From contig NZ_BCRB01000009.1 of the NCBI RefSeq assembly GCF_001552375.1, positions 1 through 64,000 on the forward strand: a stretch of 64,000 nucleotides of DNA, written 5' to 3'. The stretch comes from Cellulomonas iranensis NBRC 101100 = JCM 18110. Its GTDB lineage: Bacteria; Actinomycetota; Actinomycetes; Actinomycetales; Cellulomonadaceae. Shown here piece after piece: positions 29,447-44,295 of the stretch. Position 1 is the stretch's first letter. Every line of letters starts with the position of its first letter. Position numbers and translations under genes: made by a program. A model generated the notes under the pieces. It made no database searches and was not told where the DNA came from. It worked only from the letters and a program-made list of their open reading frames with translations.

Positions 29447-30163
29447 GTGATCAGGATCGGCATCGTCGAGGACGACAACGCGTGCGCGACGCGTCTCGTC
29501 GAGCACCTGCGACGGTACGAGCGCGAGCACGGCCACCGGTTCGCCGTCGCGCGCTTCACCGACGGCGCGCAGGCCGTCGCGGCGCACCGCCCGGGTGCGG
29601 TCGACGTGCTGCTGCTCGACGTCGAGATGCCCGCGCTCGACGGCTTCTCCGCGGCCCGCGCGATCCGCGCCGTCGACCCCGACGTGCCGATCGTGTTCGT
29701 CACGCACCTCGCGCAGGCCGCCGCGCGCGGCTACGAGGTCGAGGCCCTGGGCTACGTCGTCAAGCCCGTGCCGTACTTCGCGTTCGCGCAGCAGGTGACG
29801 CGTGCGCTCGCGCGCGTGCGGCGCGACCACGAGGACGCGCTGCTGCTGGCGGTCGACGGCGGCCTCGAACGGGTCCCCGTCGCGGACGTCGTGAGCCTCG
29901 AGAGCGCCCGCAACCGCACGACGGTGCACACGCTCACGGCGCAGCACTCGGTCGTGCGGCCGCTCAAGGCGCTCGAGGCCGCGCTGCCGGGCGCGGGCTT
30001 CGCGCGCGCGGGGGCCGGTGCGGTCGTGCACCTGCGGCACGTGCTGGCCGTGCGCGACGGCGAGGCCGTGCTCGTCGACGGCCGGCGCGTGGCCATCAGC
30101 CGGGCCCGGCGCAAGGCGTTCCTCGCCGCGCTGACCGACCACCTCGGGGCGCGGGCGTCGTGA
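29447..30163 (+). CDS. LytTR-family response regulator
   Basis: This 238-residue protein has an N-terminal receiver (acidic pocket IVEDDN, phospho-acceptor Asp58 in LLLDVEMP, conserved Lys in YVVKPVPYF) and a C-terminal LytTR DNA-binding domain (about 140-238). It is an AgrA/ComE-type regulator that would bind 9-bp direct repeats when phosphorylated by the partner kinase encoded next, with which it overlaps by 4 bp. GTG at 29447 gives the standard receiver start. Its own promoter lacks the tandem repeats found at the other LytTR-linked promoters. Confidence 0.92.
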   Translation: MIRIGIVEDDNACATRLVEHLRRYEREHGHRFAVARFTDGAQAVAAHRPGAVDVLLLDVEMPALDGFSAARAIRAVDPDVPIVFVTHLAQAAARGYEVEALGYVVKPVPYFAFAQQVTRALARVRRDHEDALLLAVDGGLERVPVADVVSLESARNRTTVHTLTAQHSVVRPLKALEAALPGAGFARAGAGAVVHLRHVLAVRDGEAVLVDGRRVAISRARRKAFLAALTDHLGARAS

Positions 30164-31557
30164 TCCTCGCCCCCCTGGTCGACGCCCTCGCGGACGTCCC
30201 TCCCGACATCCCGCGCGTCCTCACCGGTCTCGCCGAGTGGCTCGCGTGCGTCGTGTACGTGCTGCTGCGCCGGCGCCGCTGGCCGTGGTCGCGGTTCGTG
30301 GTGCTCGCCGTCGCGGCGCTCGCGGTGCAGGTCGGCGTGCAGGTCGGCGCCGGGCGCCTGCCGCTCGGTCTGTGGACCGTGGGCATGGCCGCCGCGGTCG
30401 CCGCGATGTACGGGTTCATCGTGTCGGCCGCGAAGGTGTCGGCGCGCGACGCCGGGTACTTCACGGCACGCGCGCTCGTGCTCGCCGAGCTCGTGGCGGC
30501 GCTGCACTGGCAGATGCACGTGTTCTTCTTCGTGCCCGAGGGGCGCGACGGCAGCGTGTGGTCCACGGGGTTCTTCGTGCTGGTGTACGCGGCGGCGTTC
30601 GCGGGCGCCTACGTCGCGGAGGCGCGGCACTTCCGGTCGCGGCAGTCGCTCGACGTCACGTCGGGCGAGCTCGCGTCGACCGTCGCGATCGCGCTCGTGA
30701 CGTTCTTCATGAGCAACATCAGCTTCCTCAACGCGAACACGCCGTTCTCGGGCCGCCTCGGCCCCGAGATCTCGTACATCCGTACGCTCGTCGACCTGTG
30801 CGGCTTCGTCGCGCTGTACGCGCAGCAGGGGCAGCGGCTGCAGCAGCGGGCGCGCGCCGAGGTGCGCGCGGTCGACGAGATGCTGCGCCGCCAGCACGAG
30901 CAGTACCTGCAGTCCAAGCGCAGCATCGAGGTCGTCAACCGCAAGTACCACGACCTCAAGCACCAGATCGCGGTGATCCGCGCCGAGGACGACGACGACC
31001 GGCGCAGGTCCTACCTCGACGACCTCGACGCGAGCATCTCGGGCTACGCGCGGCAGGCCGACACGGGCAACGGCGTGCTCGACGTCGTGCTGACGACCAA
31101 GAGCCTGGAGTGCGCCGAGCGCGGCATCACGCTCACGTACGTCGTGGACGGCGCGGCGCTCGACTTCGTCTCGACCATGGACCTCGCGGCGCTGTTCGGC
31201 AACGCGCTCGACAACGCGATCGACGGGGCCGCGGCCGTGCCCGCGACCGACCAGCGCCTGGTGAAGGTCGCGGTGTACGCGCGCGACCGGTTCGTGCTGC
31301 TGTCGTTCGAGAACTACTTCACCGGCGAGCTGCGCACCGAGGACGGCGACATCGTCACGCGCCGCGCCGACCGCACGCGCCACGGCTACGGCCTGAAGTC
31401 GATCCGGCACACGGCCGAGAAGTACGACGGCTCCATGACGGTCAACACCGAGGGCGGCTGGTTCGTGCTGCGCATCCTGCTGCCCGTGCCGCAGGACGCA
31501 CCCGCGCGACGCCCCTCGCGCCCCCGCCCGCGCGCCGCGGTCGAGCCGACCCCGTGA
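30160..31557 (+). CDS. GHKL-type membrane sensor histidine kinase, partner of the LytTR regulator
   Basis: The 465-residue kinase has about six membrane helices in residues 1-210, then a coiled-coil (RAVDEMLRRQHEQYLQSK) leading to the phospho-acceptor His264 (YHDLKHQIAV). A GHKL ATPase domain follows, with N-box FGNALDNAIDGA and the G-box-like HGYGLKSI. It is AgrC/ComD-like: such kinases often sense peptides at the membrane, but no peptide gene is seen here. It overlaps the regulator stop (GTGA) and is therefore translationally coupled. It faces the glf gene convergently. Confidence 0.9.
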   Translation: MILAPLVDALADVPPDIPRVLTGLAEWLACVVYVLLRRRRWPWSRFVVLAVAALAVQVGVQVGAGRLPLGLWTVGMAAAVAAMYGFIVSAAKVSARDAGYFTARALVLAELVAALHWQMHVFFFVPEGRDGSVWSTGFFVLVYAAAFAGAYVAEARHFRSRQSLDVTSGELASTVAIALVTFFMSNISFLNANTPFSGRLGPEISYIRTLVDLCGFVALYAQQGQRLQQRARAEVRAVDEMLRRQHEQYLQSKRSIEVVNRKYHDLKHQIAVIRAEDDDDRRRSYLDDLDASISGYARQADTGNGVLDVVLTTKSLECAERGITLTYVVDGAALDFVSTMDLAALFGNALDNAIDGAAAVPATDQRLVKVAVYARDRFVLLSFENYFTGELRTEDGDIVTRRADRTRHGYGLKSIRHTAEKYDGSMTVNTEGGWFVLRILLPVPQDAPARRPSRPRPRAAVEPTP

Positions 31558-31568
31558 GGGCGGCGCGC

Positions 31569-32774
<1,206 letters not shown>

Positions 32775-32818: not shown

Positions 32819-32887
32819 ACCGAACGGCCACGGGATCCGACGGATCGTGCGACCCGGGCACCCCGGTGCGGCGTGCGGTGGTTGCGT
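32819..32887 (+). promoter_or_regulatory. LytTR-type tandem repeat and promoter of the orphan LytTR regulator
   Basis: ACCGAACGG (32819-32827) and ACGGATCGT (32840-32848) are 9-mers 21 bp apart. They lie 33 bp before a degenerate -10 TTGCGT (32882-32887). The 18 bp from 32837 match 37006-37023, upstream of the permuted GH3 gene, at 16 positions. This suggests autoregulation. Confidence 0.55.
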
Positions 32888-32974
32888 GGTGGACGCCCGC
32901 GCCGAGCGCCGCCGCGGGCCGGCGGGACCCCGGCAGGCGGGTGCGGCCGCGACCGGCGAGGGAGGACCCCACCC

Positions 32975-33697
32975 GTGGACGGCGTGACCTACATCGGCGT
33001 GGTCGACGACGACCCGCACTCGCGCGCGACGGTCGTCGCGCACCTCCAGCGGTACGAGGAGGAGCACGGCGTCGAGTTCTCGGTGCGCACGTTCTCGGAC
33101 GGCGCGCAGCTCACGCGCGGCTACCGCGCCGACTTCGACGTGCTGTTCCTCGACGTCGAGATGGCGCGCATGGACGGGTTCGAGACCGCGCACGCGGTGC
33201 GCGCGCTCGACGACCGCGTCGTCATCGTGTTCATCACGCGCATGGCGCAGATGGCGATCAAGGGCTACGAGGTCGACGCGCTGAGCTACCTCGTCAAGCC
33301 CGTGCCGTACTTCGCGTTCTCGCAGGAGCTCGCGAGGTCCCTGCAGCGCGTGCGGCGCACGCAGTCGGAGGGCGTCATGCTCCCGGTCGCGGGCGGCACG
33401 GCGCGCGTCGACGTCGCGGACATCGTGTACGTCGAGAGCATCAAGCACCGCATCGTCGTGCACGCGATCGGGCGGAAGTACGCGTTCACGGGGACCCTCA
33501 AGGCGATCGAGGAGCAGCTCGCGGGGCAGGGGTTCTTCCGCAGCAACAACTGCTACCTGGTGAACCTGCGGCACGTGCACGCCGTGCGGCAGTCGACGTC
33601 GGTGATGCTCGGCGGCGACGAGCTGCAGATCAGCCGCGCCCGCAAGCGCGCGTTCCTCGACGCGATGGCGGACCACCTCGGCGGCCGCGTGCCGTGA
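32975..33697 (+). CDS. Second (orphan) LytTR-family response regulator
   Basis: The 240-residue protein has the same layout as the regulator at 29447, with receiver pocket VVDDDP, phospho-Asp60 in LFLDVEMARMDG and YLVKPVPYFAF. The LytTR domain includes YVESIKHRIVVHAIG and NCYLVNLRHVHAV. GGAGG at 32961 lies 9 bp before GTG 32975. No kinase gene is adjacent; the GHKL kinase 1.4 kb away may serve both regulators. Its own promoter and the promoters of the next GH3 lipoprotein gene and of the permuted GH3 gene carry LytTR-type tandem repeats, so this is the likely local activator. Confidence 0.9.
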   Translation: MDGVTYIGVVDDDPHSRATVVAHLQRYEEEHGVEFSVRTFSDGAQLTRGYRADFDVLFLDVEMARMDGFETAHAVRALDDRVVIVFITRMAQMAIKGYEVDALSYLVKPVPYFAFSQELARSLQRVRRTQSEGVMLPVAGGTARVDVADIVYVESIKHRIVVHAIGRKYAFTGTLKAIEEQLAGQGFFRSNNCYLVNLRHVHAVRQSTSVMLGGDELQISRARKRAFLDAMADHLGGRVP

Positions 33698-33716
33698 CCT
33701 GCCCGTGACCTGAGGG

Positions 33717-33785
33717 ACTGTTCGTGCACGCAAAGCGACGGTCCGTGTAGGGGCACGGTCCGTCGCCACGGTCGCTGCCTAGCGT
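33717..33785 (+). promoter_or_regulatory. LytTR-type tandem repeat and promoter of the GH3 lipoprotein gene
   Basis: ACTGTTCGT (33717-33725) and ACGGTCCGT (33738-33746) are separated by 12 bp. The -10 TAGCGT (33780-33785) follows after 33 bp, and no recognisable -35 exists, as expected for an activator-dependent promoter. A further ACGGTCCGT copy lies at 33755-33763, over the -35 region. Confidence 0.65.
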
Positions 33786-33931
33786 GAACGCGCCGGCCAC
33801 GGGACCACGACGTCCCGGGCGGCGACGGGTTCGCGAGTGCGCCGCGCGTGCACCGGCTCAGCGGTCCCACCCCGACGACGGGGCGGTGACGACGGGCGCG
33901 GGCGGGGCCACGAGACGACAAGGGAAGGTCG

Positions 33932-36331
33932 ATGAAGACAACGAGTACGGCGCGGGTCGCCGCCAGCCGGTCGGCACGCCTCACGAGCGCCGCGCTGGTC
34001 GCGGGCCTCACGCTCACGGGCCTGGCGGCGTGCACCGCCGGCGACACCGACGACAAGGGCGCGTCCGCCGACGAGTTCACGACGCGCGAGGTGTCGGACG
34101 GCAAGACGACGTTCGTCGTCGTCGACAACCCGGGCGACGCCCCGACGCTCTCCTACGGCGCGGACAGCGACGTCGAGCTCCTCTCGGAGGACGTCGACGG
34201 CGCGAAGGTCGCGTTCAAGGACATGAACGGCAACGGCGAGCTGGACGCGTGGGAGGACTGGCGCAAGTCCCCGCAGGAGCGCGCCGCCGCCCTCGCCGAG
34301 GACCTGACGATCGAGCAGATCGCCGGCCTCATGCTCTTCAGCTCGCACGAGCGCTCGCAGGCCGACGGCCTCACCGACGCGCAGAAGGAGTACCTGACGG
34401 ACTCCCACCTGCGCAACGTGCTGCACGCGGGCCCGAGCGACGTCACGGCGACCGTCACGTGGGCGAACCAGATGCAGGCGTTCGCCGAGTCGCTCGCGTC
34501 CGAGGGCGAGCCGTACGTGCCCGTCAACTTCGCGTCCGACCCGCGCTCGACCGCCGGCTCCGGCGGTTACAACGCCGAGGGTGACGACATCTCCCGCTGG
34601 CCGTCGAACCTGGGCCTCGCGGCCACGTTCGACGTCGAGCACATGGACGAGTTCGCGCAGATGTCGTCCGCGGAGTACCGCGCGCTCGGCATCACCACGG
34701 CCCTGAGCCCGCAGATCGACCTCGCGACCGAGCCGCGCTGGCTGCGCGTCGGCGGTACGTTCGGCGAGGACGTCGACCAGAACACCGAGCTCGCCGCGGC
34801 CTACGTCGACGGCTACCAGAGCACGCGCGGCCAGGACGGCTGGGGCTTCGAGTCCGTCAACGCGATGATCAAGCACTGGGCTGGCGACGGTCCGGGCGAG
34901 GGTGGCCGCGAGGCCCACACCAACGCCGGCAAGTACGGCGTCTACCCGGGCGGCAACTTCGAGGCGCACACCAAGGCGTTCCTCGGGTCGCTCGACTCGG
35001 CCGCCGTCATGACGGCGTACTCGATCGCGCTGGACGGCGACGGCGAGCCGCTGTTCGGCGAGCGCCTGGGCACGGCGTACGACCACGGCCGCATGGACCT
35101 GCTCCGCAAGGACAACGGGTACGAGGGCGTCGTCGTCACCGACTGGGGCGTCACGTCGAGCTACCTCGACCCCGAGAAGCCGTTCGGCATGGGCTGGGGC
35201 GCCGAGGACCTCACCGACGAGCAGCGTCACTACGAGGTGCTGCGCACGGGCCACGACATGTTCGGCGGCAACAACAAGGTCGAGCCGGTGCTGGCCGCGC
35301 ACGAGATGTGGCAGAAGGACTTCGAGGCCGGCACCAACGACGTGGACGCGGACACCCGCTTCCGCGAGTCGGGCAAGCGCATCCTCACGATGTTCTTCCA
35401 GCCGGGCCTGTACGAGAACGCGTACCTCGACCTCGACGAGTCCAAGAAGGTCCTCGCGAGCGACGACAAGGTCGAGGCCGGCTACGCCGCGCAGCTCGAC
35501 TCGGTGGTCATGCTGAAGAACGACGGCAGCACGATCGCGAAGTCCGACGCCGCCGCGTGGAAGGACAAGAAGGTCTACATCCCGCGGTCGTACAACATCG
35601 GCTTCGCGGGCGCGTTCGGCCCGGCCGAGTACAAGGAGGCCCCCGGGCTCACGCTCGAGGTCGCCGAGGAGCTGTTCGGCGAGGTCGTCACCGACGAGGC
35701 CGAGCTCGACGCCGACGGCAAGGTCGTGAGCTACACCGCGCCCGACCTGTCCGACGTGGACCTCGTCCTGGTCGGCATGGCCAGCCCCGACAACGGCGGC
35801 AACTTCTCGAACATCGGCCACGACGTCGAGAACGACACGTGGTACCCGCTGTCGCTGCAGTACCGCCCGTACACGGCCGACGGCCCGCACGTCCGCCAGA
35901 CGTCGATCGGCGGCGACATCCTGCCCGACGGCACGAAGCAGAACCGCTCGTACTTCGGCAACACCTCGAAGATCGCGAACGAGTCCGACCTCGACGCGTT
36001 CGAGCGCGCCACGGCCGCCGTCGCGGCGTCCGGCAAGGAGATCCCCGTGATCACCGTGCTCAAGGCGATCAACCCGGTCGTCCCGGCCGAGTTCGAGGCC
36101 GCGTCCGACGCGATCGTCGTCGGGTTCGGCACGAGCGACAAGGCGCTCCTCGAGGTCGCGCTCGGGCTCCACGAGCCCGCCGGCCGCCTGCCGATCCAGT
36201 TCCCCCAGGACATGGACACGGTCGAGGCGCAGCAGGAGGACGTCAGCAAGGACATGACGCCCTACACCGACGCGTCGGGCAACACGTACGACTACGGCTT
36301 CGGCCTGAACTTCGCGGGCCCGATCGGCTGA
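33932..36331 (+). CDS. GH3 beta-glucosidase-like lipoprotein
   Basis: The 799-residue exported GH3 enzyme starts at ATG with GGAAGG upstream. A lipoprotein signal with lipobox GLAAC (Cys34) would tether it to the outer face of the membrane. The barrel domain contains the substrate-binding KHWAGDGPGEGGREAH region and the nucleophile Asp404 in VVVTDWGV. The second alpha/beta sandwich domain follows, ending in YDYGFGLNF. The organisation resembles exo-acting beta-glucosidases, but the true substrate is not given by sequence. Given the neighbours (glf, GT2, GtrA), a surface glycan is at least as likely as cellulose fragments. A LytTR-type activator site lies upstream, and a hairpin at 36344-36380 follows. 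Confidence 0.9.
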   Translation: MKTTSTARVAASRSARLTSAALVAGLTLTGLAACTAGDTDDKGASADEFTTREVSDGKTTFVVVDNPGDAPTLSYGADSDVELLSEDVDGAKVAFKDMNGNGELDAWEDWRKSPQERAAALAEDLTIEQIAGLMLFSSHERSQADGLTDAQKEYLTDSHLRNVLHAGPSDVTATVTWANQMQAFAESLASEGEPYVPVNFASDPRSTAGSGGYNAEGDDISRWPSNLGLAATFDVEHMDEFAQMSSAEYRALGITTALSPQIDLATEPRWLRVGGTFGEDVDQNTELAAAYVDGYQSTRGQDGWGFESVNAMIKHWAGDGPGEGGREAHTNAGKYGVYPGGNFEAHTKAFLGSLDSAAVMTAYSIALDGDGEPLFGERLGTAYDHGRMDLLRKDNGYEGVVVTDWGVTSSYLDPEKPFGMGWGAEDLTDEQRHYEVLRTGHDMFGGNNKVEPVLAAHEMWQKDFEAGTNDVDADTRFRESGKRILTMFFQPGLYENAYLDLDESKKVLASDDKVEAGYAAQLDSVVMLKNDGSTIAKSDAAAWKDKKVYIPRSYNIGFAGAFGPAEYKEAPGLTLEVAEELFGEVVTDEAELDADGKVVSYTAPDLSDVDLVLVGMASPDNGGNFSNIGHDVENDTWYPLSLQYRPYTADGPHVRQTSIGGDILPDGTKQNRSYFGNTSKIANESDLDAFERATAAVAASGKEIPVITVLKAINPVVPAEFEAASDAIVVGFGTSDKALLEVALGLHEPAGRLPIQFPQDMDTVEAQQEDVSKDMTPYTDASGNTYDYGFGLNFAGPIG

Positions 36332-36343
36332 CCCGCGCACCGT

Positions 36344-36380
36344 CCGGGCCGGTCGGCGACCACGTCGTCGACCGGCCCGG
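36344..36380 (+). terminator. Terminator-like hairpin after the GH3 lipoprotein gene
   Basis: Twelve-bp perfect arms (CCGGGCCGGTCG and its complement) with a 13-nt loop, 12 bp after the stop codon. Confidence 0.7.
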
Positions 36381-36471
36381 GCACCGCACCGGCGGGCGTC
36401 CTGGGGACACCGACCGGTGCGGGCCTGGGCCGCGGGGTGGGCTCGCGGCCGGAACCCACGAAGGAGCAGAA

Positions 36472-36888
36472 GTGAAGCGGAACAAGGTGCTGCACACCGG
36501 GCTCGGCCTGCTGGTCGCCGCGACGGGCGTCTTCGGCCTCGCGGCCTGCGGCAACGACGACGGCGGCAGCCAGGACTCCGGCACGTCGGACAGCGCCGCG
36601 GCCGAGGTCGACGTCAAGGACGACCTCGAGAACGCGCGCAAGGCCGTCGCCGACGCGCTCGCCGAGGACGACTCGTGGGCGCAGATCATGCTCGCGAGCG
36701 ACGTCGACGCGCCGACCGTGAAGTACGGCCTGCTGGTCGTGCCCTACTCCTACTCGGACGCCGCCTCGCGCGTGCAGGGCACCATCACGATCACCGACGG
36801 CAAGTACACGATCGACGCCGACTCGGCCGCGACGGGCGACACCTGGCGCATCGACCAGGACGGCAAGATCACCGAGGTCTCGGAGTAA
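36472..36888 (+). CDS. Small lipoprotein of unknown function
   Basis: GTG at 36472 with AAGGAG 5 bp upstream gives 138 residues. The lipobox is GLAAC (Cys26), followed by an Asp/Ser/Gly-rich spacer and a small mixed domain (residues 42-138) ending in a YTIDADSA...TWRIDQDGKI pattern that looks like a beta-sandwich edge. No family is recognised. It lies between two exported GH3 enzymes and is bracketed by terminator hairpins, so it may be partly expressed by read-through. A helper role for the neighbouring enzymes is only a contextual guess. Confidence 0.75.
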   Translation: MKRNKVLHTGLGLLVAATGVFGLAACGNDDGGSQDSGTSDSAAAEVDVKDDLENARKAVADALAEDDSWAQIMLASDVDAPTVKYGLLVVPYSYSDAASRVQGTITITDGKYTIDADSAATGDTWRIDQDGKITEVSE

Positions 36889-36896
36889 GGACCCCC

Positions 36897-36923
36897 GCCG
36901 GCCCGCCCACCGGGCGGGCCGGC
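36897..36923 (+). terminator. Terminator-like hairpin after the small lipoprotein gene
   Basis: Twelve-bp perfect arms (GCCGGCCCGCCC and its complement) with a 3-nt loop directly after the stop. Confidence 0.75.
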
Positions 36924-36987
36924 CTCCGTGCGCGCGCCAGGACGGCGCCGCACCCCGCGCACGAGCACGCCGACGGCCCCGTGGACG

Positions 36988-37055
36988 ACGGTCCGTGCCC
37001 CGGAACCGACCGATCGTGCGGCCGCGGCGGGCGCTCACGACACCGCTCCTAGCCT
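36988..37055 (+). promoter_or_regulatory. LytTR-type tandem repeat and promoter of the permuted GH3 gene
   Basis: ACGGTCCGT (36988-36996) and ACCGATCGT (37009-37017) are 9-mers with a 12-bp spacer. The -10 TAGCCT (37050-37055) follows after 32 bp, and the -35 region is poor. The first repeat lies in a 12-bp stretch identical to 33736-33747. The second lies in an 18-bp stretch matching 32837-32854 at 16 positions. Confidence 0.68.
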
Positions 37056-37087
37056 GATTCGTGAGCCCGCACTCGAGGAGGAATGCA

Positions 37088-40036
37088 GTGAACGCCAGGT
37101 CGAAGAACGACCGCGCCAAGGCGCCGATGTCCAACAAGAAGTTCCTGTGGATCTGGGTCCCCGTGCTCGCCACGGTGACCGTGCTGACGGTGGTCGCGAA
37201 CATCGCCCTGAGCGTCGCGGGCGGCTGGGTCGCCTCGCAGCTGGGCACCGGCACGTACACGTTCACCAACTCGGACGAGTCGAAGGACTGGGACACCGAG
37301 TACTACACGCCCGAGCTCGCGTCGATGGAGGACGTCGACGTCGCGGCGAAGGACCTCGTCGAGGAGATCGCCGGCTCCGGCATCGTCCTGGCGAAGAACG
37401 AGACCGCCGCGCTGCCGCTGGCGCCCGGCGGCCGCGTGACGCTCCTCGGCCGCGCCGCCGCCGACCCGGTGTTCGGCGGCTCGGGCTCCGGCTCGGTCGA
37501 CACGAACTCGGCCGTCACGCCGCGTGCGGGCCTCGAGAACGCGGGCTTCCAGGTCAACGAGACCGTGCTCACCGCGATCGAGGAGTACGCCGCGGAGAAC
37601 AAGCGCGGGCACATCGAGATGGACCGCCCCGACATCTCGACCTACGACATCGGCGAGCTGCCGGTCGCCGACTACCAGGCCGTCGCGTCGTCGTTCGCGG
37701 ACTACGCGGACGCCGCGGTGGTCGTCATCGGCCGCCCGGGCGGCGAGGGCGGCGACCTCACGCAGGACATGTCCGGCTGGGACGACGACGCGGCCCCCGG
37801 GCAGCACCAGCTCGAGCTGAACACGGCCGAGCGCGACCTGATCGAGCTCGCGAAGGCGAGCTTCGAGACCGTCGTCGTCGTCGTGAACGCGTCGACCACG
37901 ATCGAGATGGGCGACCTGCAGGCCGACCCGGGCGTCGACGCGATCCTGCTCGCGGGCTCGCCGGGCGCCACCGGCTTCAACGCGCTGGGCGGCATCCTGT
38001 CCGGTGACGTGAACCCGTCGGGCCGCACGGCCGACGTGTGGGCCGCCGACTTCACGGCCGACCCGACGTTCGTCAACTTCGGCGCGTTCCTCTACGACGG
38101 CATCGAGGTCTCGTACCCGCAGTCGGCGGTCGAGCGCGCGACGTCGAACGCGACCGTCACCGACGAGGCGCCGTTCGTCAACTACGCCGAGGGCATCTAC
38201 GTCGGCTACCGCTACTACGAGACCGCCGCCGCCGAGGGCTTCCTCGACTACGACTCCGCGGTCGTCTACCCGTTCGGCTACGGCCTGAGCTACACCGACT
38301 TCGCGTGGCGCCTGGTCGACCAGCAGCTCGGTGCGGTCGACGGCACGGTCGCGCTCACGGTCGAGGTCACCAACACCGGCACGGTCCCGGGACGCGACGT
38401 CGTCGAGCTCTACTACACCGCGCCCTACACGCCCGGCGGCATCGAGAAGCCCGAGGTCGTGCTGGGCGGCTTCGCCAAGACCGGCGTCGTCGCGCCGGGT
38501 GCGAGCGAGACCGTGACGATCGAGGTCGACGTCGAGGACATGGCGTCGTACGACCACCTGGGCGAGCGCGCGTACGTGCTCGAGGCCGGCGACTACGTGC
38601 TGTCGCTGCGCACGGACTCGCACACGGTCGCCGAGGGCGTCGCGCCCGTCACCTACACGGTCGACTCCGACGTCGTGTACTCGGGCGAGAACCACCGTGC
38701 GTCCGACCGCACCGAGGTCACGAACCTGTTCGACGACGTGTCGGACCGGTTCAGCACGACGCCGCAGGACGGCAAGATCCTGTCGATGTCGCGCGCCGAC
38801 TTCGCGGGCACGTTCCCGAAGGCCCCGACGGCCGACCTGCTCGCGGCGGACGACGCGATCCGCGAGGGCTTCGCCGCGTGGGACGCGCAGGCGCAGGCCG
38901 ACGCGTTCGACGGCCCGAAGCCGGCGACCGGCAAGAGCACCGACCTGACGCTCGCCGATCTGCGCGGCCTGCCCAAGGACGACCCGAAGTGGGACGAGCT
39001 GCTCGACTCGCTGTCGGTCGGCGACATGACGGACATGCTGCTCAACGGCGCGTACCAGACGGCCGCGATCGCCTCGATCGCCAAGCCGCAGACGCTCGAG
39101 CCGGACGGCCCCGCGGGCTTCTCGTCCTTCATCAACCAGTCGATCAACGGCGTGGCCTACCCGTCGCAGTTCCTCATCGCGCAGACGTGGGACACGCAGA
39201 TCGGCGAGCGCATGGGCCGCATGCTCGGCGAGGAGGCTCTGCACAAGGGCATCAACGGCTGGTACGCGCCCGCCGTGAACCTGCACCGCTCGCCGTTCGG
39301 GGGCCGCAACTTCGAGTACTACTCGGAGGACCCGCTGCTGTCGGGCGCGATGCTCACGTCCGTCGCGAACGGCGTGGCCGAGAAGGGCGTCTACACGCTC
39401 ATCAAGCACTTCGCGATGAACGAGCAGGAGACCAACCGCGTCAACAACGGCATCGCGACGTGGGCGACCGAGCAGACGATCCGCGAGCTCTACCTCAAGC
39501 CGTTCGAGATGGCCGTCAAGGACATCACGATGGACGTGCGGTACGTCGCGGACGACAAGGGCACGGTCGAGCAGACCACCGTCGGGTCGACGGGCGTCAT
39601 GAGCTCGTTCAACCGCATCGGCGCGACGTGGGCCGGCGGCTCGCCCGCCCTCATGGACGGCGTGCTGCGCGGGGAGTGGGGCTTCGAGGGCTTCGCGATC
39701 TCGGACTTCAACCTCTACCCGTACATGAACCCGAACGAGGGCATCGCCGCGGGCACCGACCTGCAGCTCACGTTCCAGCCGTCGAAGTCCTTCAACGACA
39801 CGTCGTCCGCGAAGGCCCTGACGGACATCCGCGACGCGACCCACAACATCCTGTTCACGGTCGCGAACTCGAACGCGATGAACGGGCTCGCACCCGGCGC
39901 GACGGTCACCTACACGCCGCCCACCTGGGTGTACGTGCAGATCGGCGTGTCGGTCCTGCTCGGCCTGCTCGTCGTGGCCGGCGGCGTGCTGGTCACACGC
40001 CGCGTGCTGCGGCACCGCGGCACCACGGCGGCCTGA
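37088..40036 (+). CDS. Membrane-anchored GH3 glycosidase with permuted domain order
   Basis: This 982-residue protein starts at GTG 37088, 6 bp after GAGGAGG. One membrane helix lies near residues 20-50 and another at the C-terminus (about 945-972), so the body should sit outside the cell held at both ends. Domain order is reversed. The GH3 C-terminal alpha/beta sandwich comes first (SGIVLAKNETAALPL, the family's usual VLLKN segment), then a fibronectin III-like domain. The TIM-barrel domain comes last, with FGGRNFEYYSEDPLL, KHFAMNEQE and the nucleophile Asp873 in FAISDFN. Reversed GH3 enzymes are known in rumen bacteria such as Ruminococcus albus. The catalytic residues look intact. A LytTR-type site lies upstream. 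Confidence 0.9.
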   Translation: MNARSKNDRAKAPMSNKKFLWIWVPVLATVTVLTVVANIALSVAGGWVASQLGTGTYTFTNSDESKDWDTEYYTPELASMEDVDVAAKDLVEEIAGSGIVLAKNETAALPLAPGGRVTLLGRAAADPVFGGSGSGSVDTNSAVTPRAGLENAGFQVNETVLTAIEEYAAENKRGHIEMDRPDISTYDIGELPVADYQAVASSFADYADAAVVVIGRPGGEGGDLTQDMSGWDDDAAPGQHQLELNTAERDLIELAKASFETVVVVVNASTTIEMGDLQADPGVDAILLAGSPGATGFNALGGILSGDVNPSGRTADVWAADFTADPTFVNFGAFLYDGIEVSYPQSAVERATSNATVTDEAPFVNYAEGIYVGYRYYETAAAEGFLDYDSAVVYPFGYGLSYTDFAWRLVDQQLGAVDGTVALTVEVTNTGTVPGRDVVELYYTAPYTPGGIEKPEVVLGGFAKTGVVAPGASETVTIEVDVEDMASYDHLGERAYVLEAGDYVLSLRTDSHTVAEGVAPVTYTVDSDVVYSGENHRASDRTEVTNLFDDVSDRFSTTPQDGKILSMSRADFAGTFPKAPTADLLAADDAIREGFAAWDAQAQADAFDGPKPATGKSTDLTLADLRGLPKDDPKWDELLDSLSVGDMTDMLLNGAYQTAAIASIAKPQTLEPDGPAGFSSFINQSINGVAYPSQFLIAQTWDTQIGERMGRMLGEEALHKGINGWYAPAVNLHRSPFGGRNFEYYSEDPLLSGAMLTSVANGVAEKGVYTLIKHFAMNEQETNRVNNGIATWATEQTIRELYLKPFEMAVKDITMDVRYVADDKGTVEQTTVGSTGVMSSFNRIGATWAGGSPALMDGVLRGEWGFEGFAISDFNLYPYMNPNEGIAAGTDLQLTFQPSKSFNDTSSAKALTDIRDATHNILFTVANSNAMNGLAPGATVTYTPPTWVYVQIGVSVLLGLLVVAGGVLVTRRVLRHRGTTAA

Positions 40037-40178: not shown

Positions 40179-42623
40179 GTGCGAACCGAGGACGCCGCCA
40201 CCGCGTCGCCGCGCGCGACCGTGACGACCGACGACCTGACGCTGCTGGAGAAGGCGGCGCTGCTGACGGGTGCGTCGGTGTGGCAGACGCACGCGCTGCC
40301 GCGGCACGGCGTGCGCGCGCTGTGGCTGGCCGACGGCCCGCACGGCGTGCGCAAGCAGGTCGGCTCGGCCGACCACCTCGGCCTCAACGCGTCCGAGCCC
40401 GCGACGTGCTTCCCGACGGCCGCGACGGTCGCCAACACGTGGGACGTCGACCTCGCGGAGCGGATCGGCGAGGCGCTGGGGACCGAGGCCGCGGCGCAGG
40501 GCGTCGACGTGCTGCTCGGCCCCGGCCTCAACGTCAAGCGCTCGCCGCTGGGCGGCCGGTCGTTCGAGTACTTCTCGGAGGACCCGCTGCTGTCCGGGCG
40601 GCTGGCCGCCGGCTACGTGCGCGGCATCCAGGCGCAGGGCGTCGCGGCGTGCCCCAAGCACTACGCGGCGAACTCGCAGGAGCTGCGGCGCATGGTGTCC
40701 GACTCCGTGGTCGACGAGCGCACGCTGCGCGAGATCTACCTGACGGCGTTCGGGATCGTCGTCACCGAAGCGCGCCCACGCTCGATCATGTCGGCGTACA
40801 ACCTGGTCAACGGGGTCTACGCCAACGAGCACCCGTTCCTGCTGACGACGGTCCTGCGCGACGAGTGGGGCTTCGACGGCGCGGTCGTCACCGACTGGGG
40901 CGGCTCGAACGACGTCGTGGCCGGCACGGCGGCGGGCTCGTCGCTCGAGATGCCGGCCGCCGGTCTGGACTCGGCGCGCCAGGTCGTCGCCGCGGTGCGC
41001 GACGGGCGCCTGCTCGGCTCCGACGTCGACGCGCGCGCGGCCGAGATCCTGCGGCTGGTCGCCGAGGCGCGCGACCCCGGGACCGCTCCCACCGTGGACG
41101 CCGACGCGCACCACGCGCTGGCCCGGGACGTCGCGGCGCGCAGCGCCGTGCTGCTGAAGAACGACGACGCGATCCTGCCGCTCGCGGCGGGCACGCGCGT
41201 CGCGGTGGTCGGCGACTTCGCGCGCACCCCGCGCTACCAGGGGTCGGGATCGTCGGTCGTCAACCCGACGCGGCTCGAGTCGGTGCTCGACGTCATCGGC
41301 GCCTCGGGCCTGGAGATGACGGCCTTCGCACCCGGGTTCACGCGCAACGGCTCGCCCGACCCGGCGCTGCGCGCGCAGGCCGTCGAGGCCGCGCGCGACG
41401 CCGACGTGGTCCTGCTGTTCCTGGGCCTCGACGAGATCGCCGAGTCCGAGGGCCTCGACCGCTCGACGCTCGCGCTGCACCAGGCGCAGGTCGAGGTGCT
41501 CGACGCGGTCGCGGCCGTCAACCCGCGCACCGTCGTCGTGCTGTCGGGCGGCGGGGTCGTCGAGACGCCGTGGCTCGGGCAGGCGCGCGCGCTCGTGCAC
41601 GGCTACCTCGCCGGGCAGGCCGGGGCCAGCGGGCTGCTCGACGTGCTCACGGGTGCGGTCAACCCGTCGGGGCACCTCGCCGAGACCATGCCGCTCGCGC
41701 TCGCCGACACCCCGACCGCGGGGATCTTCCCCGCGACGGGCCGCACGGCCGAGTACCGCGAGGGCCTGTTCGTCGGCTACCGCTACTACACGTCGGCCGG
41801 CGTGCCCGTCGCGTTCCCGTTCGGGTACGGCCTGTCGTACACGACGTTCGAGCACCGCGACCTCGTCGCGACGCCCGAGAAGGCGACCGTCACGGTGACG
41901 AACACGGGCGACCGGTCCGGCGCCGACGTCGTGCAGGTGTACGTCGCGCGCACGTCGTCGGGCGTGCACCGCCCCGTGCGGACCCTCGCCGGGTTCGCGC
42001 GCGTCGAGCTCGCTCCGGGCGAGTCCGCGACGGTCGAGGTTCCGCTCGGCGACGCCGCGTTCCGGCACTGGGACACGGCCACGGGTGCGTGGCAGGTCGA
42101 GCAGGGCACGTGGGACGTGCTCGCGGGCCACCACGTCGACGACCTGCCGCTGCGCGCCGCGGTCGAGCTCACGGGCACCGTGCCGCCGCGCACGCAGGAC
42201 GTGACCGGCCCGTACCGCACGGGCCACGTCAAGGACGTCACGGACGCCGACTTCGCGGCGCTGCTGGGGCGGCAGGTCCCGGCGGGCGACTGGTCGGGGC
42301 CGCTCGGCGTCAACGACCCGCTGTCGCGCCTGGCCGACGCGCGCTCGCCGCTCGCGCGGGGCGCGTACCGCCTGCTCGCGTCGCGGCGCGACGCCGCGGC
42401 CCGCAAGGGCACGCCGGACCTCAACGTGCTCTTCCTGCTCAACATGCCGTTCCGCGCCATCGGGAAGATGACGAACGGCATGGTCAGCGCCGAGATGGTC
42501 GACGGGATCCTCCGCATCGTCAACGGCCACTTCCTCTCCGGCGCGGGCTTCACGCTGCGCGCCTACGTCCGCAACGTGCGCGCCAACCGCCGCACCGCCC
42601 GCGCGCTGCGCGGCGACTCCTGA
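40179..42623 (+). CDS. GH3 beta-glucosidase, canonical domain order, cytosolic
   Basis: The 814-residue enzyme has no signal peptide. Order is canonical: the TIM-barrel domain (LADGPHGVR, GGRSFEYFSEDPLLSG, PKHYAANSQE) with nucleophile Asp239 in VVTDWGGSND. The sandwich domain (AVLLKNDDAILPL and GSGSSVVNPT with its acid/base region) and a fibronectin III-like domain follow. A C-terminal tail of about 120 residues carries a conserved-looking DVTDADFAALLGR segment. It probably cleaves imported beta-glucosides in the cytosol. GTG at 40179 follows GAGGAG. It sits 17 bp before the GtrA-like gene, suggesting joint expression with the flippase and glycosyltransferase. Confidence 0.93.
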   Translation: MRTEDAATASPRATVTTDDLTLLEKAALLTGASVWQTHALPRHGVRALWLADGPHGVRKQVGSADHLGLNASEPATCFPTAATVANTWDVDLAERIGEALGTEAAAQGVDVLLGPGLNVKRSPLGGRSFEYFSEDPLLSGRLAAGYVRGIQAQGVAACPKHYAANSQELRRMVSDSVVDERTLREIYLTAFGIVVTEARPRSIMSAYNLVNGVYANEHPFLLTTVLRDEWGFDGAVVTDWGGSNDVVAGTAAGSSLEMPAAGLDSARQVVAAVRDGRLLGSDVDARAAEILRLVAEARDPGTAPTVDADAHHALARDVAARSAVLLKNDDAILPLAAGTRVAVVGDFARTPRYQGSGSSVVNPTRLESVLDVIGASGLEMTAFAPGFTRNGSPDPALRAQAVEAARDADVVLLFLGLDEIAESEGLDRSTLALHQAQVEVLDAVAAVNPRTVVVLSGGGVVETPWLGQARALVHGYLAGQAGASGLLDVLTGAVNPSGHLAETMPLALADTPTAGIFPATGRTAEYREGLFVGYRYYTSAGVPVAFPFGYGLSYTTFEHRDLVATPEKATVTVTNTGDRSGADVVQVYVARTSSGVHRPVRTLAGFARVELAPGESATVEVPLGDAAFRHWDTATGAWQVEQGTWDVLAGHHVDDLPLRAAVELTGTVPPRTQDVTGPYRTGHVKDVTDADFAALLGRQVPAGDWSGPLGVNDPLSRLADARSPLARGAYRLLASRRDAAARKGTPDLNVLFLLNMPFRAIGKMTNGMVSAEMVDGILRIVNGHFLSGAGFTLRAYVRNVRANRRTARALRGDS

Positions 42624-42640: not shown

Positions 42641-43279
42641 ATGCTCACGCGCCTGAAGTCCGCCTGGCACTCCTTCGAGGAGCGGCGCCCGGGAGTCGCC
42701 CAGTTCGTCGTGTTCCTCGTGCTCAGCAACGGCATCACCGCGCTGCAGCTCGCGCTCATGCCGCTCATCAAGTGGCTGTTCGGCATGACGGCGCTCGTCG
42801 ACACCGCGTTCCAGGTGTGGCCGGTCGGGTCGAACCCCGACGGGTCGCAGTACTTCGTGTTCGACTACGCGGCCGGTGCGCTGCCGCTGGGCGGCGGCGG
42901 CCTCGCGTACTTCCTGGCGGTGCAGATCACGCTGCTCGTGGCGCAGGTCATCAACTTCTTCGCGCAGCGCAGCATCACGTTCAAGTCGAACTCGTCGATC
43001 GCCAAGGCCGCGTTCTGGTACGCGGTGGCGTACGTGGTCATCACGATCCTCGCCGCGGCGGCGCAGGGCTGGTACAAGGCGCCCATCTACGATCTGTTCA
43101 TCGACACCTGGGGTCTGGGTGGCACCGGCGAGACGCTCGCCGACTTCGTCACCATGATCATCAACGCGGCGATCTCGTTCTGGGTGTTCTTCCCGATCTT
43201 CAAGGTCATCTTCAAGCAGGTTCCCGCCGAGGCGGGCGCGCAGGGGGCTGCGTCCGACTCGGAGGTACGTACGTCGTGA
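42641..43279 (+). CDS. GtrA-like polytopic membrane protein
   Basis: The 212-residue protein has four predicted membrane helices, with the GtrA hallmark between the second and third: NFFAQRSITFKS. An N-terminal QFVVFLVLSNGITALQL helix precedes it. GtrA proteins are thought to flip polyprenyl-linked sugars across the membrane for surface glycan glycosylation. It contains an insert of about 35 residues between helices 1 and 2 that is larger than usual. ATG at 42641 follows CGGAGG. The next gene, a GT2 glycosyltransferase, overlaps it by 4 bp, which is the typical GtrA/GtrB arrangement. Confidence 0.8.
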   Translation: MLTRLKSAWHSFEERRPGVAQFVVFLVLSNGITALQLALMPLIKWLFGMTALVDTAFQVWPVGSNPDGSQYFVFDYAAGALPLGGGGLAYFLAVQITLLVAQVINFFAQRSITFKSNSSIAKAAFWYAVAYVVITILAAAAQGWYKAPIYDLFIDTWGLGGTGETLADFVTMIINAAISFWVFFPIFKVIFKQVPAEAGAQGAASDSEVRTS

Positions 43280-44295
43280 ACCCGTTGCTGTCCGTCGTCA
43301 TCCCGGCGTACCAGGCGCAGGACTGCCTGGCGCGGGCGCTGGACTCGGTGGTGGGCTTCGGCGACGAGGTCGAGGTGATCGTGGTCGACGACGGGTCGAC
43401 CGACGGCACGGCCGACCTCGCGCGCCGCTACGTCGAGCGGTTCGCGGGGCAGGTGCACCTGCTGAGCAAGCCGAACGGTGGGCACGGCTCGGCGATCAAC
43501 GCCGGGCTCGAGCGCGCGACGGGCACGTACCTCAAGGTCGTCGACGCCGACGACTGGCTGGACCGCGACGCGCTCGCGCAGGTCCTGGCGACGCTGCGGG
43601 CGCAGGTGGCCGACGGCGGCGGGGTCGACCTGCTGGTGTCGAACTTCGTCTACGAGAAGGTCGGCAAGCGTCGCAAGACCGCGGTGCGCTACCGCGGTGC
43701 GCTGCGCCGCGGCCGCGTCTCGACGTGGGCGCAGACCCGGCACTTCGGCAAGCGGCAGTACCTCATGATGCACGCGCTGACGTACCGCACCGACGTGCTG
43801 CGTCGCTCGGGGCTGCGCCTGCCGGAGCACACGTTCTACGTCGACAACCTGTACGCCCTGGTGCCGCTGTCGCACGTGCACACGCTGTACTACCTGGACG
43901 TCGACCTGTACCGGTACTTCATCGGCCGCCCCGACCAGTCGGTGCAGGAGTCGGTCATGCTGCGCCGCCTGGACCAGCAGCTGCGCGTCAACTGGCTCAT
44001 GCTCGACCACGTCACCGGCACGCTCGCGCACGACCGCCGGCTGCGGCGCTACCAGCTGCACTACGTCGAGATCATCTGCGCCGTCACGTCGATCCTGCTG
44101 CTGCGGGCCGGCACCGCGCAGGCCCTGGCGGAGAAGGAGGCCCTGTGGTCGCAGATGCGCGCGCAGGACCGCGAGCTGTACCGCAAGGTCCGCTGGTCGG
44201 GCCTGGGGCAGATGTGCAACCTGCCCGGTGCGACGGGGCGGCGCGTGTCGGTGCTGGCGTACCGGGTCGCGCAGCGGGCGATCGGGTTCAGCTGA
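43276..44295 (+). CDS. GT2-family glycosyltransferase
   Basis: The 339-residue GT-A fold enzyme shows SVVIPAYQAQ at the start, VVDDGSTDGT for nucleotide-sugar binding, GGHGSAINAG and the metal-binding DADDW. The C-terminal 120 residues are helical and partly hydrophobic but without clear membrane helices. It would transfer a sugar from a nucleotide donor to a lipid carrier or glycan. Its GTGA overlap with the GtrA-like gene points to a shared pathway of surface-polymer decoration. Donor and acceptor are unknown; UDP-Galf made by the nearby Glf is one possibility. Confidence 0.9.
   Translation: MNPLLSVVIPAYQAQDCLARALDSVVGFGDEVEVIVVDDGSTDGTADLARRYVERFAGQVHLLSKPNGGHGSAINAGLERATGTYLKVVDADDWLDRDALAQVLATLRAQVADGGGVDLLVSNFVYEKVGKRRKTAVRYRGALRRGRVSTWAQTRHFGKRQYLMMHALTYRTDVLRRSGLRLPEHTFYVDNLYALVPLSHVHTLYYLDVDLYRYFIGRPDQSVQESVMLRRLDQQLRVNWLMLDHVTGTLAHDRRLRRYQLHYVEIICAVTSILLLRAGTAQALAEKEALWSQMRAQDRELYRKVRWSGLGQMCNLPGATGRRVSVLAYRVAQRAIGFS

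Follow-up and report, generated by a model that had tools for sequence, protein, structure and literature searches.

LytTR regulators are known mainly for their roles in virulence, competence and bacteriocins. In the AgrA/AgrC, ComE and VirR systems a regulator consisting of a receiver and a LytTR domain is combined with a GHKL kinase, as is also the case at the locus described here. LytTR promoters carry two 9-bp repeats which are separated by 12 bp and often end 10 bp before the -35 (PMC6193735); the repeat pair of AgrA is centred at about -60 (PMC4227749). H169 of AgrA is essential for binding and N201 contributes to it, the bound 9-mer being ACAGTTAAG (PMC11039898). The HdrRM/BrsRM LytTR Regulatory Systems consist of a LytTR regulator and a membrane protein and are distinct from two-component systems (PMC6193735). 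They share with our locus the repeat length, the spacing and the promoter distance, as well as the positive autoregulation which we propose for one of our two regulators. However, both of our regulators contain receivers and their partner is a GHKL kinase.

A neighbourhood of LytTR regulators and glycoside hydrolases has been described for Butyrivibrio proteoclasticus, in which three LytTR regulators are each encoded close to a secreted GH3 enzyme with a C-terminal transmembrane helix (Kelly et al. 2010, PMC2914790). In the part of the paper that deals with these loci, which belong to a Firmicute, proximity alone is described and no sites, promoter or regulon are given. The likeness to our locus is one of description and does not imply orthology. 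A first, sequence-only reading of our locus had called LytTR control of glycoside hydrolases unusual; it has indeed been barely noticed, but judging from that part of the 2010 paper there is a precedent for LytTR regulators beside secreted GH3 enzymes. Our literature search, which covered sources other than subscription journals, found neither published sites or a regulon for a LytTR-GH3 system nor a LytTR system connected to GtrA. The mechanism proposed here is the standard one of LytTR regulators; new is the target set in Actinobacteria.

The window, i.e. the whole stretch of 64,000 nucleotides of Cellulomonas iranensis DNA that was analysed, has a GC content of 73%. As judged from its sequence, a set of cell-surface sugar-cleaving enzymes encoded there is very probably switched on by a single AgrA-type two-component regulator. 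The following features are discussed:

29447-30163, plus strand: RRb, second LytTR regulator; receiver intact, equivalents of AgrA H169/N201 replaced by N/A
30160-31557, plus strand: membrane GHKL histidine kinase (PF14501), likely cognate; adjoins the regulator in most relatives
31569-32717, minus strand: UDP-galactopyranose mutase (glf; TIGR00031, 319.6 bits, cut-off 303.75); conserved neighbourhood, no site
32819-32848, plus strand: tandem LytTR site in the regulator's own promoter, ACCGAACGG-12-ACGGATCGT
32882-32887, plus strand: -10-like TTGCGT, 33 bp past the preceding site
32975-33697, plus strand: RRa, response regulator with receiver and LytTR domain (PF00072, PF04397), 240 aa; proposed DNA-binding activator
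33717-33746, plus strand: tandem LytTR site of GH3a, ACTGTTCGT-12-ACGGTCCGT
33780-33785, plus strand: -10-like TAGCGT, 33 bp past the GH3a site
33932-36331, plus strand: GH3a, exported lipoprotein GH3 (lipobox LAAC; PF00933/PF01915)
36472-36888, plus strand: conserved 138-aa lipoprotein, present in about 50 of the loci analysed
36988-37017, plus strand: tandem LytTR site of GH3b, ACGGTCCGT-12-ACCGATCGT
37050-37055, plus strand: -10-like TAGCCT, 32 bp past the GH3b site
37088-40036, plus strand: GH3b, circularly permuted GH3 with a transmembrane helix at each end (Pfam order GH3_C, Fn3-like, GH3_N)
40179-42623, plus strand: GH3c, probably cytoplasmic; no site of its own here, own site in some relatives
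42641-43279, plus strand: GtrA/DPMS-TM-like membrane protein (PF04138, 24.5 bits, just below the cut-off of 26.1)
43282-44295, plus strand: GT2 glycosyltransferase (PF00535), adjacent in the conserved module

The nearest solved relative of GH3a is the beta-glucosidase 9ul7. The 138-aa lipoprotein, which is encoded between GH3a and GH3b, matches no Pfam family; it has a near-invariant core (APTVKYGLLVVP, TWQIDQDGTI), and its predicted structure was set aside with a pLDDT of 53. The hydrophobic segments of GH3b comprise residues 28-46 and 961-979 (numbering from 37061). With this C-terminal segment and a regulator gene 3.4 kb upstream, GH3b corresponds to the arrangement described for Butyrivibrio. 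The most likely start of GH3b is the GTG at 37088, which is preceded by GAGGAGG; a start at 37061 is less likely and would fall on the position where transcription is predicted to begin. Transcription would be expected to start near 33792 for GH3a and near 37062 for GH3b. GH3c reaches 739 bits with the model for exo-alpha-(1->6)-L-arabinopyranosidase, which is under the cut-off of that model. The glf gene is located on the opposite strand, between the RRb/kinase pair and RRa.

The sequence-only reading had reported three pairs of 9-mers (32819/32840, 33717/33738 and 36988/37009), and all six are placed correctly, with a spacer of exactly 12 bp in each pair. The reported similarities between the promoters, 12 of 12 identical positions for 33736 against 36986 and 16 of 18 for 32837 against 37006, are also correct, as are the three -10-like boxes beginning at 32882, 33780 and 37050 and their distances of 33, 33 and 32 bp. 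When strict pairs were counted in the window for every period from 9 to 39 bp, period 21 yielded three, period 17 two and period 38 one, and the other periods were empty. The 17-bp periods are due to additional partial half-sites at GH3a, which lie at 33755 and, on the other strand, at 33763; the extra copy differs in Cellulomonas sp. B6, the closest named genome, and is not conserved in other relatives. On both strands of the whole 3.97-Mb genome the strict 21-bp tandem pattern matches four times, three of these at the studied locus, and the reversed control pattern does not match at all. Genomes of the same genus that lack the regulator (26 in number) contain on average 1.8 strict matches each. 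This corresponds to about 0.002 matches expected by chance in 4.2 kb, and the three found there are thus not due to chance.

The promoter anatomy was derived from 71 sites of over a dozen genera, which share less than 80% identity and are the only non-redundant set of this study. Information is found only in the two repeats, in a central AA within the spacer and in the -10 box, and almost none in the -35 region and the flanks. The extended repeat unit is approximately GACNGNTCGTGC. The -10 box has the form T....T and its commonest distance from the repeats is exactly 33 bp, which is the peak position of TANNNT; T[TG]NNNT occurs at exactly this distance in 22 of the 71 sites. Due to this distance the repeat pair lies at about -75 to -46 with its centre near -60, as is likewise the case for AgrA, with which the two direct 9-bp repeats and the 12-bp spacer are shared. 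Two such repeats upstream of the -35 are characteristic of the LytTR family. The half-site ACNGTTCGT resembles the AgrA 9-mer, but is GC-rich and ends with CGT. The presumed targets also differ from those of AgrA, being surface glycoside hydrolases and a GtrA/GT2 pair.

Exactly two LytTR proteins are encoded in the whole genome, both of them at this locus. RRa has the architecture of a LytTR response regulator, with scores of 56.9 bits for PF00072 and 63.7 bits for PF04397, both above cut-off. Its earlier description as an orphan was half right: RRa is not isolated, as RRb and the GHKL kinase (29447-31557) lie upstream, and in most relatives the genes of regulator and kinase adjoin each other. 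In the tree RRa clusters with further copies that lack a kinase and stand directly before GH3a (L098, L105); RRb falls into the kinase-linked clade. H158 and N192 of RRa align to H169 and N201 of AgrA (PDB alignment), and Arg 221 near the C-terminus, which is invariant in the family, is assumed to be equivalent to AgrA R233; with this assumption all three DNA-contact residues of AgrA are present in RRa. At the position of H169, RRa and 81 of the 89 other members have H and RRb has N. At the neighbouring position of H200, RRa and 82 of the 89 have N and RRb has G. At that of N201, 79 of the 89 carry either S or N, RRa carries N and RRb carries A. Near-invariant contacts of RRb are changed (KHR to RNR, RSNSG to RAGAG), and the same changes are found in the sibling B6. 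Inspection by eye of the half-site class (CGT versus TGT) against the residues of the RSN[NS] loop of the regulators revealed no strict rule.

Since its DNA contacts are lost and its receiver is intact, RRb is proposed to be a phosphate sink or a partner and not the main DNA binder. The simplest reading is that RRa would bind DNA and that RRb would act as a receiver-only protein. In the proposed course of control the membrane GHKL kinase would sense a signal from outside and phosphorylate the LytTR response regulators. A dimer of RRa would then occupy the two direct repeats centred near -60, immediately ahead of a -35 element that is weak or lacking, and recruit RNA polymerase to the -10 box about 33 bp downstream. 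Activation is presumed to include the exported lipoprotein GH3a and the lipoprotein that accompanies it, as well as the permuted, membrane-anchored GH3b together with the GH3c, GtrA and GT2 genes that follow; in this species only, RRa would also switch on its own gene in a positive loop. We are confident, though not certain, that control runs in this way from the kinase through RRa at the 9-bp repeats to GH3a, GH3b and here RRa itself, with RRb not being the main binder. Peptide quorum sensing of the Agr type was rejected as a model, as an AgrB-like processing peptidase (PF04647) is absent from the genome.

There is perhaps a small chance that the sites are real LytTR sites which are mainly bound by the kinase-linked RRb (29447) or by a heterodimer of RRa and RRb. 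Most relatives have no regulator other than the kinase-linked one, yet their sites are of the same type, and the sites in the window resemble those of relatives that possess only an RRb-type regulator. It is, however, RRb of the window and of the sibling that carries N, G and A in place of AgrA H169, H200 and N201, while RRa retains the conserved residues, and the LytTR domain of RRb scores 36 bits in comparison to 64 for RRa.

Far less probable is that the repeats are the sites of a repressor or of another regulator unrelated to the adjoining LytTR proteins. The half-site is partly palindromic (ACGGTCCGT), but the 9-12-9 geometry, the 33 bp before the -10 box, the position at about -60 and the half-site sequence agree with published LytTR sites, and the presence of sites follows that of the regulator across genomes. 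At the family level (222 genomes) a close homologue of the regulator is found in 56 genomes, and all 56 contain GH3b. A true GH3b is otherwise present only in G110, where a contig edge cuts the regulator down to a fragment; two others match only at 43-44%. At the order level, where the GH3b threshold is loose, 53 genomes contain both, five the regulator only, 13 a GH3b-like protein only and 325 neither. GH3 genes that are distant from the regulator keep the site (GH3a in six genomes, Oerskovia-type genus g36). In Sanguibacter suarezii (G230) it is found before GH3c and GH3a, and in other genomes before an unlinked GtrA gene. The link between regulator, site and targets which had been suggested from the sequence is thus supported in three ways: the regulator and GH3b occur together almost without exception, the genome encodes no more than two LytTR proteins, and GH3 and GtrA genes that are unlinked to the regulator are preceded by the site.

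A looser pattern also matches in some genomes without the regulator, chiefly because of one recurrent look-alike, ACTGCTCGTGCGCGACGTCCGACGGGTCGT (21.9 bits), which is present in many genomes with or without the regulator and also in this one (G000:C21:42503-42532, outside the window). As it recurs without the regulator and is probably coding, it was not counted as a regulatory site. In viral contigs 62 matches to the looser pattern were treated as background.

Conservation was analysed in about 100 loci taken from relatives, in which close relatives are favoured and several genomes are present twice under different locus ids. The 400 bp 5' of every homologue were scanned for all periods from 10 to 44. 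In the other genomes period 21 was prominent before GH3a in 19 of 29 and before GH3b in 23 of 56 cases; it was absent before GH3c and the kinase, and the reversed controls were empty. A weight matrix was trained on the GH3a and GH3b sites of other genomes. These were picked with a pattern derived from the motif first noted, so that the matrix leans towards that motif; the -10 box and the AA of the spacer were not selected for, and sites of GH3c, GtrA and GT2 were outside the training set. The matrix ranks the three promoter sites first in the window, with 41.0 bits for GH3a, 38.6 for GH3b and 28.5 for the regulator. The next independent match has 11.8 bits, and one of 17.1 bits is an overlapping partial copy at GH3a. 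With a threshold of at least 14 bits, sites were found in 38/39 loci for GH3a, 40/78 for GH3b, 13/72 for GH3c, 10/65 for GtrA, 2/57 for GT2 (one species twice) and 3/103 for the regulator. No site was found before the kinase (0/83 loci) or the UDP-galactopyranose mutase (0/55). Many of the 38 of 78 GH3b genes without a site of their own stand behind GH3a, and a single upstream promoter could serve both.

The period scan, the matrix and the 71-site set clearly show that in relatives the repeats are conserved and the flanks are not, which is the outcome that the sequence-only reading had named as supportive; the outcome that it had named as a refutation was not observed. The pair of 9-bp repeats at the three promoters is real and deeply conserved. 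A chance similarity, for which the GC content of 73% and the recurrent 21.9-bit look-alike might speak, is refuted by the selective conservation across genera, the fixed register and the empty control genes and has a negligible probability.

Self-activation is of narrower scope. The predicted autoregulation of RRa would not be a general feature. A site before the regulator is seen in two very close genomes only, the present one and its sibling G007, in which it has one mismatch, and no convincing site was found in the other approximately 100 regulator promoters; one AT-rich Clostridia locus with 15.4 bits before the regulator was not counted as convincing.

More tentatively, and perhaps wrongly, the locus may represent an old module of Actinobacteria and Firmicutes, in which LytTR/GHKL control would serve the remodelling of the cell's own surface glycan and not the feeding on outside polysaccharide. 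The controlled set would comprise two exported GH3 enzymes, the lipoprotein, GH3c, the flippase-like GtrA protein and GT2, beside the UDP-galactopyranose mutase. Here the DNA surface of the kinase's own regulator would have decayed, and its role would have passed to a paralogue with a self-activating promoter. For a single regulator there are now a matrix of its sites, a regulon that is small and defined, and a near-perfect co-inheritance with its target in more than 12 actinobacterial genera including cellulose degraders, by which the remark of 2010 becomes a candidate regulon with named target promoters. It is a well-sampled actinobacterial LytTR system for the co-variation of site and protein, and the two neighbouring paralogues, of which one is intact and the other has eroded DNA contacts, provide a natural test of those contacts.

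Homologues of the regulator neighbouring GtrA or GH3 genes were also observed in Lachnospiraceae, other Clostridia and a Streptococcus, and sites were not found at these homologues. One locus of the Lachnospiraceae (L228, 6920-12027) encodes a GH2-like glycosidase (assigned by eye), a GtrA-like protein, a LytTR regulator and a GHKL kinase, with no GH3 nearby and no site detected. We do not claim conservation of the site across phyla, as judged from these sequences. The only convincing pair near GH3 or GtrA genes of the Firmicutes relatives is located in a Clostridia MAG (L229, 3285-3314), where a perfect 21-bp pair, ACTGTTTGT/ACCGTTCGT, lies between the kinase and GH3 on the strand opposite to GH3.
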